Part shown: piece after piece, positions 10,886-25,429 of the stretch
Position numbering within the stretch: position 1 is the stretch's first letter
How the letters are laid out: each line of letters opens with the position of its first letter
Source: a virus
Length of the DNA stretch: 42,204 bases
Virus record (IMG/VR): IMGVR_UViG_3300048044_000169
Coordinates: 1 to 42,204 of that record
Direction: 5' to 3' (one strand)
Translations under genes and position numbers: made by a program
The notes under the pieces: generated by a model
Database searches by the model: none
Seen by the model: the letters and a program-made list of their open reading frames with translations, nothing else
What the model was told of the DNA's origin: nothing

Positions 10886-13828
10886 TCAGAGACCCCATCG
10901 ACTCACGTTATTTCTGGTTTGGTTCCGTGAAGCCCTGTAAAGGCCCTGGGTAACATCACGGCTGTTGTCGCGCATAATACGTCCCATGCTTTTTCCATCA
11001 ATAGCCTGAACGTTATAGGTTGGTGCATGAGTAAAGTTTCCCCCACCGCCTGCAGCGCCTCCTGGTCCCGAAGTTTGCCCGGATAAAATTCCGCGTACCG
11101 TATCCGCCATGCCACCTTTGGCCGGAACAATTAACTCGTTTTGGTGTACCCGCGCTACCATGTCACCAGGAACTGACCAGCTGCCAACATCATAACTTGG
11201 AAGGTTTCCAATGGACGAATTTCCATAAAATGAGCCTGTATTACGTCCTTGATTATTGCTGCTTGAACTACCACCTTTCATGATGTCCATCAAACCTGCC
11301 ATAAGAAGCAAGGGCCATAGTGCATTCCAGATACTCACTGCAGCCGTTTGCGATGATTGACCAACCTGAGTAAGTGCTTGACTTGCACCAGACCCCATTT
11401 GGTTTGCTGATGTGGTTGTTTTTTGAAATAGATTGGTGAATTGCTGAGTAAAATTCTGGGCAAATATTTTTACAACGCCATTCAAGATATCATTTGCCAT
11501 CTTTTGAAACGCTTGCTTGATGGTAGACGTTCGTTCGACTACACTTGCAATTATTTCCGAAAAGGTACTTTGCACCTGAGTCGCTAAATCAATCCAGGGC
11601 TTTTTGAGATTTTGTTCTTGCTTATCGTCCTGGGTTTTGAGATCCAGCGTATTTTGTTTTTTGGCAACCAAGATCTGATTCTGTATGGCAATGATTTTAT
11701 CGGCAATTTCTTGGAAAGCTGCCGGATAATCTTTCTGCAATTGCTGTAATAGCGTAATTTCCTCATTGTACTCGTTAAGCCGAGCCTGCCGTTTCTGATT
11801 TTCAAGATTGTTGAGTGCTGCCAACTCACTAGCTGCCGATATTTGCCCCATAGCAGCCTTATGTTTTATGTCTTCTTCTTGACTGGCAACATCCAAATCA
11901 GACAATTGCAAAGATAGTTCCAGATATTTTTGCTTAGTCGCGTATATTTTGTCAGCGGCTTTTTGTTCTTCTTCAGCAACTTTTGCTGCAGCCTCTAATT
12001 CCTTTGTTTTTGCCTCAGCATATTCTTTGCTTTGCTCACCAAATTGGGCTTTAGCAGTGTCCGCTACCTGTTGCAGAAATTTCACATCATCTTGCGCAGC
12101 TTGTAGTGCCGTTATTTTATGTTCGGCAACATATAACTTGTCAAGAGCCTCTTCTTGTTCGATCTCATCCTTTTTAGCCTGCAAAACAGCTTCAGCGGCT
12201 TTTTTCGCATCTTCTGCGGAATGATCTTTTGGTGGTTTTTTTCCTTTAGGGCCTTTCGGTCCTGGCATTGTAGGTGCGTTTTGATCGCCTTCAGGTGTTG
12301 AGGGACCTCCGCCGGCAGCGCCACCTATACCACTCATAACGCCTTTTATTTTGTCTTTTATACCGCCGATTGCTTTAGAAGTGATCGTTGACACTAAGTC
12401 CCATGTATTACTAGCAATATCACCAATATCTTTCATAGCACCAGACCAATCGCCTACCATAGAGCCCCAAGCAGCTTTGACTCCCTCCCAATCTCCTACC
12501 AAAGCAGCATGAATCGCATTAGCAATACTATTACAAATAGATTTTATGTGTTCCGCAAGTCTAGAAAAGACTTGAGCAATAGCATTTACTGTATTATCAG
12601 TAGCAGTTTTAATGCCGTTAAAATTTGTAGTCCATGCTGCGTATAATGCGGCAACTGCCACACCCACGATAACAACTGAGCCAATCAATAGATTCAATCC
12701 TAAGGTCATGGCTGTTTCTGCTGCAGAAGCTAACCAAGCACCACTTGTGAATGCTTCAAATGCTCCAATACAGACTTCTACAACCCCGGTCGTAGTAACT
12801 ATGATAGCATCAAGCGCGATAGTAATTGCTGCCCATACAGTGTGGGCGGCTGCCGCTGCCAGAATACCCAATCGATAGGTAGCCCAAATTCCAGTAGCAA
12901 TTCCTATCGCTTCTATTACAGTTTCAACCGTTCCAACTAACGCTTGGTGAGAGTCAGTCCAATCACTGATCGCACTAATAGCCTCTCTGATCGCCGCTGG
13001 TATCTCTGCTATAAAAGTAGAAAAATCAACTAGAACCGGAATAACTACATTGCCTATTGACATTGCCAATGCCTCACCAGTTATAGAAAGGTCATTTAGT
13101 GACATTTTGTACTGCACTGCCTTATTTAGCCCCTGCTCACTCATAACCAATCCAAGGGATTCGGCTTTTTTAGCTGCCATGTCCATGGTATCGCTCGTAA
13201 GTCGCAAAAGCGCATTAATATCCATGTGTGATCGCTTCATGATTTCGACAGCGGCGACATTCCGGTCAGTGCCTGCTTTCATATCGCCAAGTTTTGCAAT
13301 GACTTCTTGCATAATGCTTTGCGAATTTTTAAAAGTACCGTCACCATTTCTAACGCTAATATCAAGCCCCTGAAATGCTTTAGAGTTATTTGCCAAAGAC
13401 CGGGCAATAGCTTGCGCTCCCTGTGCATATTGCTGTGCGGTAATTCCCACATGCTGTAATGCAACATCTAAGACACTCGCATCTTCGGCCGAAATTCCCA
13501 GCTTTGTACTTAACAGTTCTACACCTTCGGCGAATTCGGTGGTTTTGTTCAGCACTTCTCCAAAAATCGCACCACCTGCCATGACAGCCCCAATACCTAC
13601 AATAGCCTCCTGGAATCCGATTACTGACTCCTTAATTCCAGCCATTGTTTCTTTTATACTTGCACCCATTTCTTTAACCATGGCCTGTATTTCAGGGGCT
13701 GTTGCAGCCCAGTCGGAACGCATAGATTCGGTAGCCGTCTTATTTGCTGTAGTGGCCTCAGCCATGCCCTCTTTTAAATTTGACGCATCGGCTTCTATAC
13801 CGACTGATACTTTGTCATCATCAGCCAT
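10886..13828 (-). CDS. Tail tape measure protein
   Basis: 980-residue tape measure protein that sets tail length and is ejected ahead of DNA. It begins with charged helices, has hydrophobic stretches around residues 290-400 (for example LNLLIGSVVIVGVAVAAL), a proline/lysine-rich linker near 500-530, then long Ala/Glu/Gln coiled coil and a Gly-rich C-terminus. I place the start at the ATG at 13828, which overlaps the end of the chaperone extension by 8 bases and has GGGAGG at good spacing. The TTG at 13852 lacks this. Confidence 0.92.
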   Translation of the reverse strand: MADDDKVSVGIEADASNLKEGMAEATTANKTATESMRSDWAATAPEIQAMVKEMGASIKETMAGIKESVIGFQEAIVGIGAVMAGGAIFGEVLNKTTEFAEGVELLSTKLGISAEDASVLDVALQHVGITAQQYAQGAQAIARSLANNSKAFQGLDISVRNGDGTFKNSQSIMQEVIAKLGDMKAGTDRNVAAVEIMKRSHMDINALLRLTSDTMDMAAKKAESLGLVMSEQGLNKAVQYKMSLNDLSITGEALAMSIGNVVIPVLVDFSTFIAEIPAAIREAISAISDWTDSHQALVGTVETVIEAIGIATGIWATYRLGILAAAAAHTVWAAITIALDAIIVTTTGVVEVCIGAFEAFTSGAWLASAAETAMTLGLNLLIGSVVIVGVAVAALYAAWTTNFNGIKTATDNTVNAIAQVFSRLAEHIKSICNSIANAIHAALVGDWEGVKAAWGSMVGDWSGAMKDIGDIASNTWDLVSTITSKAIGGIKDKIKGVMSGIGGAAGGGPSTPEGDQNAPTMPGPKGPKGKKPPKDHSAEDAKKAAEAVLQAKKDEIEQEEALDKLYVAEHKITALQAAQDDVKFLQQVADTAKAQFGEQSKEYAEAKTKELEAAAKVAEEEQKAADKIYATKQKYLELSLQLSDLDVASQEEDIKHKAAMGQISAASELAALNNLENQKRQARLNEYNEEITLLQQLQKDYPAAFQEIADKIIAIQNQILVAKKQNTLDLKTQDDKQEQNLKKPWIDLATQVQSTFSEIIASVVERTSTIKQAFQKMANDILNGVVKIFAQNFTQQFTNLFQKTTTSANQMGSGASQALTQVGQSSQTAAVSIWNALWPLLLMAGLMDIMKGGSSSSNNQGRNTGSFYGNSSIGNLPSYDVGSWSVPGDMVARVHQNELIVPAKGGMADTVRGILSGQTSGPGGAAGGGGNFTHAPTYNVQAIDGKSMGRIMRDNSRDVTQGLYRASRNQTRNNVSRWGL

Positions 13829-14494
13829 TAACATTTCCTCCCGCTGCCGCAAAGTCCGTTTTCAAATTATCGAATGCCTCATTTGAGTGAGGAGTCTTTT
13901 TCGTGTCCTGATAATACGATTCATCCCAAAACACCTGTGCGCCACTGTCAGCTTGCGTAAATGGCCGTTGTACAGTTTGATAGCCTAAAGCAGAAGAAAT
14001 CCCCCGAATCAGATAATTGACCGGAGGATTATACTTCCACTCAGCGAGAAAATTCCTGTACCGTGGAATTGTCATATTGTGGCGTATGTAGTCCCATGTC
14101 CAGCCTGTAGCCGCGATAATATCCCAATACCATTCACCCCAAGGTATTGAGTCTAGACTACAGGCTGAATTTCCCCCGCACTTGCACTAGTGTTTTCTTC
14201 GTCAGTAGCGAGTCCTGATTCACCTTTGATTGCCGCTAATATTTCACGGAAATTGCGAAGGGTCAAAATACTTTTAATTTCATCACGCGTAACCTCGTAG
14301 TTTCGTGATACAGCAGCATAAACAATATCGATGACATCGCCTATGCTATCAGGCGTCATTTTATCGTCTGATTCAAGTTTTTGCATCTTGGGTGCTAACT
14401 CTTCAATCTGTCCAAATGACAAAGCCGGGATAATGATCGTTTGTCCTTTTATTTTTACAGCTGATCCCTCAAAAGGTAACTGCTTCATTTTCAT
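13821..14494 (-). CDS. Tail assembly chaperone, G-T fusion by -1 frameshift
   Basis: Long form of the tail chaperone, by analogy to lambda gpGT. The G part uses the first frame from 14494. The T part is read in the -1 frame and contributes about 117 residues, giving a product of about 224 residues. The -1 frame is coding-like right through the region beyond the G stop (GEWYWDIIAATGWTWDYI), and no start codon with a ribosome site precedes it; the ATG at 14075 lies inside this conserved-looking stretch. The -1 frame opens only after a TAG at about 14190, so the shift must occur between there and 14153. The product would bind the tape measure during tail assembly. Confidence 0.75.
14153..14494 (-). 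CDS. Tail assembly chaperone, short form (G-like)
   Basis: 113-residue first-frame product, probably the abundant tail chaperone made before frameshifting. It starts at ATG after GAGGGGGAAT and begins MKMKQLPFEGSAVKI, followed by helices typical of G-like proteins between major tail protein and tape measure. Its stop TAG lies inside a 10-bp palindrome (AGTCTAGACT). Confidence 0.8.
   Translation of the reverse strand: MKMKQLPFEGSAVKIKGQTIIIPALSFGQIEELAPKMQKLESDDKMTPDSIGDVIDIVYAAVSRNYEVTRDEIKSILTLRNFREILAAIKGESGLATDEENTSASAGEIQPVV
14170..14177 (-). other. Candidate -1 frameshift site (GGGGGAAA) in the tail chaperone gene
   Basis: On the minus strand the first-frame codons GCG GGG GAA ATT contain GGGGGAAA, the most slippery run in the window where the shift must occur. 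Gly-tRNA on GGG can re-pair perfectly after slipping one base back. The A-site pairing is imperfect, so this is not a textbook heptamer. The site lies about 17 bases before the first-frame stop. Confidence 0.55.
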
Positions 14495-20556: not shown

Positions 20557-20981
20557 TTTCCATTATCCTCCTCCATCGCTAACTGCTCCTGATCAACTTT
20601 GTAACCGCAATCCGGCGAATATAAAAGCTCAGTAGCATTAGGTGGATGATCGTACCAAGGAAAATGGCTACACATTCTCGGCCTATTGTCATGGTCAGAG
20701 CAAAGATTTGTCGTCTCATTAAATTTGCGGCAACGAAAGAAAAATCTATCGGTATCTTTATCCATCCATTTTTCCAAGTGTGGATTAATTCGAAAAGCTT
20801 CTTTCTGACTTATTTGCACTAAGTTTTTATAACAAAATTCTAAGTCGCCGCCTTTTCCTTTCTCACGCCGTAAATCTTTAGTATAGTGGTTAATTATGTA
20901 TTCCTTGTCGAATTTCAGTGACAAAGCCTTGCAGCACATACCACACATCTTGCATTGTCCGGTTAATTTATGACCATTCAT
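20553..20981 (-). CDS. YkgJ-family cysteine-cluster protein in the head module
   Basis: 142-residue protein of the YkgJ Cys-cluster family (zinc or iron binding). The N-terminus carries CKMCGMCCKAL, and later cysteines occur in FFFRCRKF, TTNLCSDHDNRPRMCSHFPW and SPDCGYKV, the usual spacing for this family. It is coupled by ATGA to the MuF gene before it and to the next gene after it, so it is part of the head operon rather than a stray insertion. The role in phage heads is unknown. Confidence 0.8.
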   Translation of the reverse strand: MNGHKLTGQCKMCGMCCKALSLKFDKEYIINHYTKDLRREKGKGGDLEFCYKNLVQISQKEAFRINPHLEKWMDKDTDRFFFRCRKFNETTNLCSDHDNRPRMCSHFPWYDHPPNATELLYSPDCGYKVDQEQLAMEEDNGK

Positions 20982-21724
20982 TCTTCGTCCTCGCTTTCAT
21001 CGTCATCTTCTGCAACCATCGACACTGTATAGTCGCACAGACACCGCGGATGCCCAGGCGGAACAATATCGCCGCTAGGAAATTCCTCATCAAGATCAAT
21101 GGCACCGGCGTCCACATTATCGTCACATTCGTCGTCATCATCGTGAGTGTCGGCCAAGATCCATTCTTTTTTTAGTGGCAACCCTGATCGCTTATAGCCT
21201 AACAGCCTACCATTACAATCAGCAAAGGCGGTTTCGGTCCGTGCAATCAGCAATGATCGATTTTTGCTAAATGCTGCATTATCGGCAATCTCTTTCGCCA
21301 GCTTGTCGTTTGACCAACCTTCTTCCATTGCATCAGTGACAGCGCTTCTGAGATACGTTCTTGTACTATCAGTAATAGCCCACTCAGCATTAGGATTATC
21401 AACTAGTTCACCGGCAACATATTTCTTACCAACCATCTCAGCGGCTCTAAATTGCGACCAGGCGACAGCATCCTCATTAACCAGTTTGGTAATATCCACA
21501 TCGCTGATTTCAACTTGCGTTAAAGCTCTTGCACCGCTATATTGTGCTATCTGTTCCAATAGTGGCTGCATATCATCAAATAAAATAGCCCAACCGTCAA
21601 AGTTGAGCTTAGCTAGGATTTCGCTTACATCGGCAGTCGCGCCGATTTCTTGTATTGCCGCAATAATCTGTTGCGCTGTATCGAGTGAGAACTGAGCAAA
21701 TATTTCCTCGATGAGTTTTTGCAT
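20978..21724 (-). CDS. MuF-like minor head protein
   Basis: 248-residue protein of the phage Mu F-like minor head family. The diagnostic C-terminal half shows LIARTETAFADCNGRLLGYKRSG, the acidic D/E-rich patch, then PPGHPRCLCDYT. MuF proteins sit at the portal vertex and can be ejected with DNA. The ATG at 21724 has no clear ribosome site. The frame is open and coding-like back through 21778 (VFDPLPRDTTVLNNFQDD) without another usual start codon, which points to production as a portal fusion. Confidence 0.85.
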   Translation of the reverse strand: MQKLIEEIFAQFSLDTAQQIIAAIQEIGATADVSEILAKLNFDGWAILFDDMQPLLEQIAQYSGARALTQVEISDVDITKLVNEDAVAWSQFRAAEMVGKKYVAGELVDNPNAEWAITDSTRTYLRSAVTDAMEEGWSNDKLAKEIADNAAFSKNRSLLIARTETAFADCNGRLLGYKRSGLPLKKEWILADTHDDDDECDDNVDAGAIDLDEEFPSGDIVPPGHPRCLCDYTVSMVAEDDDESEDEE

Positions 21725-21741
21725 ATCATCTTGGAAATTGT

Positions 21742-23256
21742 TTAATACAGTTGTGTCTCTCGGCAGCGGATCAAAGACTTTTTTTTTTGAGTTTTGGTAA
21801 TTCGCTCTGCCATCAGATCAGCGAGTGCTTCTAAATCAATATTTTCAATCTTGGTAATTTTGTCAGTTGGCTTGGCTACCTGTGGTTGCGCTGCTGGTTT
21901 TTGTTGCCCAGGTGCTACAGGTTTACCATTCTCGTCCACTTCACCGCTTTGCATCATAGGCGGTGGAGCAGGATTCATTTTCTCTTGTTGCTCAGGTGTC
22001 AGAGGATCACGGCCCAAGTCTTCACGAATTTCGTCCGGATCCAACACTTTGCAGGTCACATATATCTGGTCAATCTGAGCTTTTTCAAGTGGTGAAACGG
22101 CTGATTCATCAACCCATTGGAATTCAATTTCAGTCCACCCGCAATACACCTGCAGGACTAAATCAAAAAATTCTTTCACATAGGCCATACGCGGCCCGTT
22201 ACCTTCGCGCTGTGCTGACTCCTGCAATGTTTCTGAGGTTGAACGATTCATTTGCTTAACAAATTGAGTTGCAGGCAATGACAGCACGGCCATAACTACG
22301 CGAGCAATCCATTCGTCAATTTCAGCTTTTAACTCTGGACTCTTAAGCTGCACGGGCTTAACGCCTGACGGAATCCATCTGCCTTTACGCTTTAGATTTT
22401 GATCACCCTCGAACATCGCATCCCAGTATGCCTGAAATTGTTGGATCTGATCTTTTCCCCAAGTTTCCGGCGCACAGAACGCGGTTTCCGGAATTGATCC
22501 ATCAGTGAAAAATCCTATGATATATAACTGCCTGCGTATGGCTATGTCAATGGTATCTATGATCTGCTCAACATATCCATAGCCGTACACATGATTGCTG
22601 CGAGGATTACGCGGCAAATATATCAGCTGCTCGGTCGTGAGATTGACAGCTGGCATGCCGTACAAGATTTGCTGATAGGCCGGATCCGGCGGCTGTGGTC
22701 TATCGCCATTAATATCAATCTTCGGCATGATCGTGGCACCATCAATAACCTTAAGCCTACATACCTCGCCACCACGATTCCTGATAACTTCGACAGCCGG
22801 TGCATCAAGTACCATCATATCTTCAAGTAGTTTACGAATTGATCTCTTCCATGACAGACCATTTGCAGGATCCGGATTCATTAATAATTTATATGCTTTT
22901 TCAATGTTTGCCTGATTTTTTGCTGTGGCATCCTTGATATCGACAGGCTTCATGTTCTGCCGCTTAATCGGCCCAACGCACCATTCTAATACCTCAATCT
23001 GATCTTTGCAGGTTTCAAGGCCAATTCTCAGGATATCGCAGTTGTCGGCCAGTGTCCGCAACGTATTAAAGTCTATGTCTTCATAGGCTCTAGGCCAAAC
23101 GTTAAGGTTGTATCCAGGCGGGTATTCCATAGTCCGCGGCTGTGTACCAGGTGGCGCTGTCGGATCGATCGGCTTAGACGGTGAAAACCAATCCATAGCC
23201 GTATCTTTTAGACTGTGATATGCGTTTGTTATTACTGCTGCAAACGGGTTAGACAT
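21742..23256 (-). CDS. Portal protein
   Basis: 504-residue portal protein, the dodecameric DNA channel at the capsid vertex. It follows the large terminase and has the expected helical wing and stem features (LRTLADNCDILRIGLETCKD, RQLYIIGFFTDGSIPETAFC, LPATQFVKQMNRSTSETLQE). The C-terminal 80 residues are Pro/Gln-rich. The last ten or so residues after a lysine triplet (SLIRCRETQLY) are probably not the natural end in every copy, because a canonical slippery sequence precedes them. The ATG follows AGGAGTCAGG. Confidence 0.92.
   Translation of the reverse strand: MSNPFAAVITNAYHSLKDTAMDWFSPSKPIDPTAPPGTQPRTMEYPPGYNLNVWPRAYEDIDFNTLRTLADNCDILRIGLETCKDQIEVLEWCVGPIKRQNMKPVDIKDATAKNQANIEKAYKLLMNPDPANGLSWKRSIRKLLEDMMVLDAPAVEVIRNRGGEVCRLKVIDGATIMPKIDINGDRPQPPDPAYQQILYGMPAVNLTTEQLIYLPRNPRSNHVYGYGYVEQIIDTIDIAIRRQLYIIGFFTDGSIPETAFCAPETWGKDQIQQFQAYWDAMFEGDQNLKRKGRWIPSGVKPVQLKSPELKAEIDEWIARVVMAVLSLPATQFVKQMNRSTSETLQESAQREGNGPRMAYVKEFFDLVLQVYCGWTEIEFQWVDESAVSPLEKAQIDQIYVTCKVLDPDEIREDLGRDPLTPEQQEKMNPAPPPMMQSGEVDENGKPVAPGQQKPAAQPQVAKPTDKITKIENIDLEALADLMAERITKTQKKKSLIRCRETQLY
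21778..21784 (-). other. Canonical -1 slippery heptamer A_AAA_AAG at the portal 3' end
   Basis: A run of ten A on the minus strand (complement of 21779-21788) is read in the portal frame as CAA AAA AAA AAG, which contains the heptamer A AAA AAG. A -1 shift joins the portal frame to the MuF frame without meeting a stop, giving a product of about 759 residues. Polymerase slippage on the same run could do the same. Confidence 0.65.
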
Positions 23257-24552
23257 TTACCTGACTCCTTTCTGCTGTGCGGCCTTTATCTTTTCAAGTT
23301 CTTCGTTAGCGAAGTCAAGCCATCCAGTATCACAGCGTCGATACGGTTCTATGCAATACCTTAAAGCCGCCATAGCATCGTCAAAAAATTCAACTGGTTC
23401 ATCAAGATACAAGCCTGTTTTAGAATCCTTTTTCCACTTCCATTGCTGCGCCTCTTTGATCGTGTTGACGCAACGCGGGTGAATGTGGATCTTATGTTGC
23501 TTCAAGTAGTCAATCTGAGCCTTGACGCTTCCAGGCTCTTTCTTTACCGGGTAAGCGCGATAGCCAGCCTTTGACCACATTTGTATCCTGTCAGGCTCGG
23601 CGGAATCGCAATACATCATCAGTTCTTTACTGAGCTTTTTTGATTCAGCCAATCTGATAATTTCGTTGGAATCCATTTCAAACACATAAATTTCATCGCA
23701 AACAAAAAGCTCACTGTCTTTAAAGCCGACATTGAGAATTGCATTCGCATGATTGAAGCCAAAATCCTGAGATATTACCATGGAATCAAACCGGATGAAA
23801 CTTGTGTCAAACTCATGCACGTAGTAGTTATGCAGAATTAAGCCACCAGTTTCGCCCCAATTTCCAAGTCCATATACAGTGTAGCCTTCCGGATCTCGCT
23901 CTTTACGCATCATCATGCGTCGGTGGTAAGCCTCATCGATAAAGCGGTTGTCCAGGTAGGTTGAGTGATGAGTCATTATGTCCGGGTGTTCTATATCAAA
24001 GTATTTGGCTTTGATATAGTGTGTAGCCGATACAGGGTTAAAGGTAAGCGTCATCTGATAATATAAGTTTGAATTGTCGAGTATACCACGGAGCCGGTCA
24101 TCAAGAATATCAATGTCAGCTTCAGTTAGCTCGGTCGCCTCTTCAATCCAGATCCAAACTAGCTTTCCATGGCTAAAGTTGATTGACTTGACTTTTTCAC
24201 GCTGGCGTTCATCATTCATGCCGCGAAATATTATTTCGTTGCCTGTAATCTTACAAGTCATCCGCAGTGGGCTTAAAGTGGTTTTCCAATACAGTTCAGC
24301 TTTATCACCACATATGCGATGTACGGCCGCTGTTAACTCGGCAAAAGTCGAATCCTTATTACTACCTTCGACTTTCCTTATCGCTAACAGATTCGCACCT
24401 TTGTATTTCGGGTCCATTAGCTTGATAATATAATCCTGAGCAATATCAACGCTCTTTCCAGAACCAGCCGATCCTTTAAGAACCCGGTACCGCTTTCGGC
24501 ATTTATTTACCGCTCGGAATATCGGATTAAATTTGACGACTACCTCAGCCAT
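23257..24552 (-). CDS. Terminase large subunit (PBSX/Terminase_3 type)
   Basis: 431-residue packaging motor. The ATPase has Walker A GSAGSGKS (27-34) and Walker B LVWIWIEEATEL. The nuclease domain shows acidic residues in ISQDFGFNHANA, MYCDSAEPDRI and EFFDDAMAALRY. I use the ATG at 24552 (MAEVVVKFNP), which overlaps the small terminase stop by 8 bases; a start at 24582 is possible but poorly placed. It cleaves concatemeric DNA and translocates it through the portal. Confidence 0.93.
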   Translation of the reverse strand: MAEVVVKFNPIFRAVNKCRKRYRVLKGSAGSGKSVDIAQDYIIKLMDPKYKGANLLAIRKVEGSNKDSTFAELTAAVHRICGDKAELYWKTTLSPLRMTCKITGNEIIFRGMNDERQREKVKSINFSHGKLVWIWIEEATELTEADIDILDDRLRGILDNSNLYYQMTLTFNPVSATHYIKAKYFDIEHPDIMTHHSTYLDNRFIDEAYHRRMMMRKERDPEGYTVYGLGNWGETGGLILHNYYVHEFDTSFIRFDSMVISQDFGFNHANAILNVGFKDSELFVCDEIYVFEMDSNEIIRLAESKKLSKELMMYCDSAEPDRIQMWSKAGYRAYPVKKEPGSVKAQIDYLKQHKIHIHPRCVNTIKEAQQWKWKKDSKTGLYLDEPVEFFDDAMAALRYCIEPYRRCDTGWLDFANEELEKIKAAQQKGVR

Positions 24553-25429
24553 CGTCGCCACTTCCGTTATCACCATAATCAACTATGATTTTAAGTCCCT
24601 CTTCACCGTCGGGTAACATATCGTTGCCATTTTTCTTCTCGACAGCTTCGACTTTTCGTCGTTCAATGTCAAGCCGCTCACCTTCAACCTTGCGCTGCCA
24701 CTGATCCGGAAGCCAATCAAAGTGCTTTCTCAGCTGCTCCCATGCCCATTTCTTATCTGCCAGCTTGATACTAATACCATCTTTACCCTGCTTAACCTCG
24801 GAAATTACTGAAGTATCAAGCATTTCGCTCTCTCCAAGGGAAATACAGTTTACCGGTTCTTTTAAATATTCGCCAGTGTCCGGATCTTTGATAGGACCGT
24901 TGTCATCATAAACTAGCTTATCAACGGCACCAAATCTGAGATAATCGCCGATATCTGCACCAACGACCTTCATACAGAAAGCAAGGAGATCTCGAATATC
25001 GAATTGCACATCTTGCAGAATCAATTCTCTCAAACGTTCAATTTCTTTTTTTATACGTTGGCGACTGTACAAGCGGCTTCCAATCACTTGAGCACTGACC
25101 TTATTTCCTTTTCCATACCCAGCCTTAAGCGCTGCTTGTGTGGCATTATGGCTTTGAACATGATAATGGCAAAACAGAATTTCTTGATCGGACAGCTCCT
25201 CTTCGGGATCCGGCTCCGGTTCAGGTTTGCCTCTATTTTTAGGGATGCATCCTTTTTTGTTTTTAGGGGATGCAAAGGATGCATTCTTTTTAGCGGTTTT
25301 ATCACGCGACCAACCGTATCTTTGCTTCCAAGATTTTGCAGTTGGAACAGCGACTCCATACTTTTTGGCTATGTCTGCAAATGACATTCCAAGAATATAA
25401 TCTTTCTCGGCCAGCTCATGGTTTGACAT
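24545..25429 (-). CDS. Terminase small subunit
   Basis: 294-residue DNA-recognition subunit of the packaging enzyme. The N-terminal HTH (MSFADIAKKYGVAVPTAKSW) is of the PBSX XtmA kind. Next come a Lys/Pro-rich linker and the Terminase_2 domain (SDQEILFCHYHVQSHNATQA, followed by ALKAGYGKG). The C-terminus is acidic and coiled, suited to oligomerisation and binding the large subunit. GGAGGTGGTGA lies about 12-16 bases before the ATG, wider than usual. Confidence 0.9.
   Translation of the reverse strand: MSNHELAEKDYILGMSFADIAKKYGVAVPTAKSWKQRYGWSRDKTAKKNASFASPKNKKGCIPKNRGKPEPEPDPEEELSDQEILFCHYHVQSHNATQAALKAGYGKGNKVSAQVIGSRLYSRQRIKKEIERLRELILQDVQFDIRDLLAFCMKVVGADIGDYLRFGAVDKLVYDDNGPIKDPDTGEYLKEPVNCISLGESEMLDTSVISEVKQGKDGISIKLADKKWAWEQLRKHFDWLPDQWQRKVEGERLDIERRKVEAVEKKNGNDMLPDGEEGLKIIVDYGDNGSGDDG

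Follow-up and report, generated by a model that had tools for sequence, protein, structure and literature searches.

A conserved A-run near the end of a phage portal gene is a candidate slip site joining portal to MuF

The DNA analysed here ("the window") is a 42,204-base IMG/VR virus record, a single metagenome-derived contig in which the length of the A-run described below is read from the assembly alone. Its minus strand exhibits the following features at the locus of interest:

23257-24582, minus strand: terminase large subunit gene (PF04466, E-value = 1.3e-42), directly upstream of the portal gene
23256-21742, minus strand: portal gene, a 504-aa ORF in the 0 frame giving the short product (PF04860, E-value = 4e-15; phrog_2662 positions 31-455, E-value = 3e-61)
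21788-21779, minus strand: A10 run, the putative slip site, also present at the matching junction in relatives
21784-21778, minus strand: heptamer A_AAA_AAG, in the portal frame
21742-21777, minus strand: 0-frame tail of the short portal, 3' of the run, ending in TAA
20978-21817, minus strand: -1 frame ORF with the MuF part, of which 266 codons would be used after a slip (PF04233, E-value = 2.1e-8; phrog_2662 positions 582-714, E-value = 2e-19)
21725-21778, minus strand: MuF-frame segment VFDPLPRDTTVLNNFQDD, 5' of the first possible start, predicted to be read only upon a slip; its motif is common to the fused relatives
21722-21724, minus strand: first MuF-frame ATG, 18 codons in, without a ribosome-binding site

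The portal-frame context of the run on the minus strand is ...ACC AAA ACT CAA AAA AAA AAG TCT TTG..., and the placement of A_AAA_AAG inside an A10 run near the portal gene end, as given by an earlier sequence-only reading of this DNA, is exact. The nearest stops past the run occur after 34 nt in the 0 frame and after 5 nt in the +1 frame, while the -1 frame is open for 798 nt. The claim that this frame continues stop-free into MuF, for a fusion of about 759 residues, is likewise confirmed: its open stretch extends from 21817 down to a stop at 20978, and the predicted slip product has 493 + 266 = 759 aa. The two frames match separate parts of one protein family annotated as "portal protein" (phrog_2662, 717 positions), and a joined product is predicted from these matches. 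Features expected of transcriptional slippage are present, namely a homopolymer of at least 9 A or T within coding sequence (here A10) and a conserved alternative-frame product with nearby stops in the other frames. So is the in-frame X_XXY_YYZ heptamer (A_AAA_AAG) of the -1 frameshifting in Escherichia coli dnaX. Taken alone, the A10 in the window is no more than chance (one seen against 0.83 expected from dinucleotide shuffles of the window), and it is the relatives that make the case. The window portal was modelled poorly (pLDDT 55.7), with a low-confidence stretch at residues 431-474. Within the head gene cluster, the MuF stop has a four-base overlap with a gene for a CxxCxxCC zinc/iron-chelating-domain protein (PF03692; 20553-20981).

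Used as a single query, the window portal matched no viral contig; an alignment-based search succeeded. Alignment scans of IMG/VR, a genome scan and named phages together provided 188 distinct loci, the window included. Portal and MuF are fused in one ORF at 77 loci, MuF lies in the -1 frame at 33 ("split" loci hereafter) and in the +1 frame at four, two have MuF in the same frame past a stop, and 72 lack a detected MuF. The sequence-only reading had proposed to look among relatives for a conserved run or for fused genes, and both are found. Fusion is the usual state among the relatives compared, as in the Brevundimonas phages Polewnik and Strzyga (39% identity) and the Arthrobacter phages Sonali and Mufasa8. 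A run of 8 to 10 A occupies the junction in 26 of the 33 split loci, and in one more (L107) GGAGA precedes A_AAA_AAG. The other six have neither the run nor a heptamer with a Shine-Dalgarno-like (SD) sequence, and several of them show a normal MuF start; a slip is therefore not needed by every member. Where a run is present and MuF is not fused, MuF is in the -1 frame in 26 of 26 loci and in the +1 frame in none, with a 0-frame stop 6-67 nt past the run in all. An A9 or A10 also lies at the same junction in 16 of the 77 fused relatives, where slipping would bring premature termination and hence a short portal. By comparison, then, the run is kept in either arrangement. A slip site is entirely absent from many fused relatives, and not all members therefore require a short portal.

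Several further observations were made on these loci. In the fused proteins of Sonali and Mufasa8 (L005:2144-5131 and L007:2134-5136) an inserted NUDIX hydrolase domain separates portal from MuF. Unusually long MuF or fused ORFs (425-1427 aa; L144, L221, L164, L016, L275, L280) suggest extra C-terminal domains. Eight loci (L048, L051, L054, L062, L065, L081, L082, L038) exhibit at least one more partial portal match downstream in the same orientation, possibly tandem duplications. An A9 also lies in the fused ORF of THSA-485A, a cultured phage, which was not counted since that gene is rich in A, contains numerous A6-A7 runs and gave no clear match to MuF. A Neisseria prophage relative (NZ_CP119142) lacks a run of six or more A in the stretch searched.

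The long runs are specific to this junction. In 1.24 Mb of relatives, coding-strand runs of at least nine A occur 42 times at the junction against once elsewhere, and runs of at least eight A 43 times against 15; the lengths at the junction are A10 (n = 26), A9 (n = 16) and A8 (n = 1). Elsewhere in the same ORFs only 39% of lysine codons are AAA and none of 12 KKK tripeptides is coded as A9, which argues that the nucleotides are kept and not merely the lysines. A scan blind to portal genes, for A9 with (I/L)DRDR codons 3-24 nt downstream, matched 31 among 2.9 million viral contigs. Every match with enough upstream sequence proved to be a portal gene by HMM, with MuF fused or in the -1 frame and never in +1; three matches (L325, L335 and L336) end at contig edges.

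We conclude, at a probability of roughly 85%, that the A10 is a conserved programmed slip site yielding a plain portal and a predicted portal-MuF protein, which would form a mixed ring. Normal reading would give the 504-aa portal, stopping 34 nt past the run. The 759-aa portal-MuF protein could arise if RNA polymerase slipped and put one extra A into the mRNA, or if the ribosome shifted by -1 on A_AAA_AAG; the two routes would give an identical protein sequence. Plain and MuF-bearing subunits would then co-assemble, holding MuF at the portal.

Which route is used was approached through stimulators. At the window, SD pairing about 10-15 nt upstream of the run is only -2.6 kcal/mol against a background of -3.5, and no downstream hairpin was found (z = +1.16). 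Downstream RNA structure is likewise not in excess over the 26 run-bearing split loci (mean z = +0.10), and upstream SD pairing at the A8-A10 loci is not clearly above background (-3.5 kcal/mol in fused and -4.1 in split loci). The relatives with short runs (A6/A7) differ. Their mean upstream SD pairing is -9.45 kcal/mol (z = -1.07 against a synonymous-codon null), which separates them from the long-run loci (p = 3e-7) and from fused controls without a slip site (p = 9e-6) in small samples where kinship was handled only by counting one near-identical group once. In five of them (L309, L098, L100, L107, L109) the heptamer is preceded at about 11-15 nt by an AGGAG-like sequence, and these A6/A7 relatives probably use dnaX-type ribosomal frameshifting. 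L309 is a 43-kb plasmid record of Herbaspirillum seropedicae AU13965 (NZ_CP034394.1) with phage head genes and a fused portal-MuF gene; its AAGGAGG lies 13 nt before an A7 at the junction and offers a handle on the ribosomal version.

A purely ribosomal mechanism, in which tRNA-Lys slips on A_AAA_AAG or A_AAA_AAA and a longer run merely improves the slip, is the alternative that survives best, and we regard it as possible though doubtful. It would account for the exclusive -1 direction of the run-bearing splits, for the dnaX-like SD sequences of the short-run relatives, and for the in-frame heptamer contained in every run (A_AAA_AAA or A_AAA_AAG, except for A_AAA_AAC in L025). It does not explain why the runs exceed the 7 nt that the ribosome requires and are confined to 8-10, nor the lack of an SD sequence above background or of a hairpin in the long-run members. 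Many bacterial genomes begin to show selection against RNA-polymerase slippage at A9 (PMC1088944, PMC5009743), and the A9 of Thermus dnaX gives about half (~50%) short product (PMC1088944). Given the confined lengths and the absence of SD and hairpin stimulators in our comparison, RNA-polymerase slippage appears somewhat likelier than a ribosomal shift for the window and the other long runs. The attribution of the fusion to frameshifting or slippage in the sequence-only reading is thus strongly supported by the comparison, with the qualification that transcriptional slippage accounts for stimulator-free A9-A10 runs no less well than a ribosomal -1 shift does.

Programmed slippage is also to be distinguished from changes in the DNA itself. 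A portal tree with 115 rows requires 14 or more changes of slip state, 10 of which well-supported branches make unavoidable, and no fewer than 10 exchanges between fused and split among the rows that bear a run. The branch of the window portal is long (1.14), and its nearest kin are not close. Such interchange over the tree, and the proneness of poly-A tracts to replication slippage, could suggest phase variation, with changes in DNA run length toggling the MuF fusion among individual phages. Free drift would yield +1 as often as -1, yet no run-bearing locus is in +1, and run length and frame are common to close relatives. A run of A9 in L040 and of A10 in L221 is moreover compensated, the frame being unchanged despite the unequal length. 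Phase variation is accordingly improbable. One group of eight loci (L060, L169, L021, L056, L145, L168, L057, L059) has A9 or A10 throughout, with five members fused and three split.

The MuF frame appears to be coding from the run onwards. Directly after the run, fused and split members alike exhibit KKK-x-(I/L)DR(D/N)R in this frame, ahead of any MuF start codon. In the L061 group (7 members) the first 20 MuF-frame codons past the run differ at codon positions 1/2/3 by 75/65/135, and the first MuF ATG comes 47-124 codons past the run, beyond this constrained stretch. The relatives thus place the MuF frame under codon constraint right from the run. The sequence-only reading had described coding-like sequence without a usual start before the MuF ATG, and both the motif shared with fused relatives and the third-position bias of relatives agree with it; its observation that the ATG lacks a ribosome site also holds, SD pairing at 21724 being only -0.7 kcal/mol. 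These data bear on the proposal that MuF is a separate protein started at ATG 21724, the overlap having no function. Relatives L142, L166 and L015 do have a MuF gene with a start and an SD sequence. At the window, in contrast, there is no ribosome site, and 18 residues of the conserved segment would be lost; in the other run-bearing relatives the first ATG lies up to 124 codons in, inside conserved protein. Over the run-bearing split loci its distance from the run varies between 7 and 124 codons, with no common start. We therefore hold a separately started MuF to be very unlikely in the window. Relatives with their own MuF start and no run had been named beforehand as evidence against a slip; L015, L142 and L166 are of this kind and contrast with the window rather than refute the reading. 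Together with L016 and L275, in which MuF is also a separate gene with its own start, they represent a third solution besides fusion and slippage.

That a continuous portal-MuF ORF with A11 has been broken by a recent mutation, or by an error of assembly or sequencing, could be supposed from the single contig, the existence of fused relatives and the chance-level A10 of the window, but it is the least likely alternative and is largely refuted by comparison, given the 26 split loci from many separate records in one frame and never in +1, the 14 or more changes of slip state, the near-identical sites from separate assemblies (L057 and L059; L146 and L157) and the shared frame of L040 and L221 at different lengths.

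Site, frame, conservation and, in the relatives, MuF-frame coding constraint are thus established at the level of sequence and comparison; that a few MuF copies are built into the ring, as the sequence-only reading proposed, is an inference. Portal rings are treated as uniform 12-mers. If the slippage reading holds across the lineage, the 12-fold portal would combine both kinds of subunit, with a homopolymer determining its asymmetry; such mixed rings could be tested for by mass spectrometry and cryo-EM. A conserved slip site would answer, for this lineage, how few MuF copies reach the portal, a question open in SPP1-like phages: from the established roles of the two proteins, a covalently joined product arising at a defined rate would determine both how many MuF copies are present and where, with no binding step. 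Extending this, we give slightly better than even odds to the proposal that slippage determines the composition of the portal ring in a large phage lineage, with A9-A10 kept in fused or split genomes and lineages swapping RNA-polymerase slippage (long run) and SD-stimulated frameshifting (short run) at one junction. One gene family would then offer a natural comparison of the two mechanisms. Annotation that relies on ORFs breaks these genes in two and overlooks the predicted fusion.

Both fused portal-MuF genes and slippage or frameshift sites are known. Our literature search, with most subscription journals outside its scope, found no earlier report of either kind of site at the portal-MuF junction. 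The PRFect paper lists MuF-like genes among putative false positives (PMC10885494), and the main text of the GeneTack paper does not mention portals (PMC3711429). The closest parallel to the long runs is found in Thermus thermophilus dnaX (A9) and in the split A10 dnaX genes of GeneTack, those of Chlorobi included, where about 9-10 A give a short and a long product from one gene (PMC3711429, PMC5009743, PMC1088944). The genome there may encode the gene in fused or in split form, as at the portal-MuF junction (PMC3711429, PMC5009743). Those genes encode the polymerase clamp loader, whereas here slippage is predicted in a phage structural gene. E. coli dnaX, with A_AAA_AAG and an upstream SD sequence, resembles the short-run relatives (the Herbaspirillum locus and the four others listed with it); the window lacks both its Shine-Dalgarno sequence and its hairpin.

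Among structural genes, lambda G/GT (tail chaperone) and the head protein of Lactobacillus phage A2 similarly gain a C-terminal extension by a -1 shift. The present case differs in genes and position, in its long A-run and in its recurrence in the portal gene: the site lies next to the terminase large subunit gene and not, as for lambda G/GT, between the major tail and tape-measure genes, the tape measure of the window being at 10886-13852, away from the slip site. The Microbacterium and Arthrobacter phages with fused portal-MuF genes (PMC7302621; Sonali, Mufasa8) have the same two domains in one polypeptide, portal first. They have a single ORF and thus MuF on every portal subunit, whereas here MuF is predicted on slipped products only. 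In SPP1, MuF (gp7) is found at the portal (gp6) in few copies inside the head, as proposed here, and of the virions lacking gp7 only about 25% can infect (PMC6316719). There, however, the two proteins come from separate genes and bind non-covalently.
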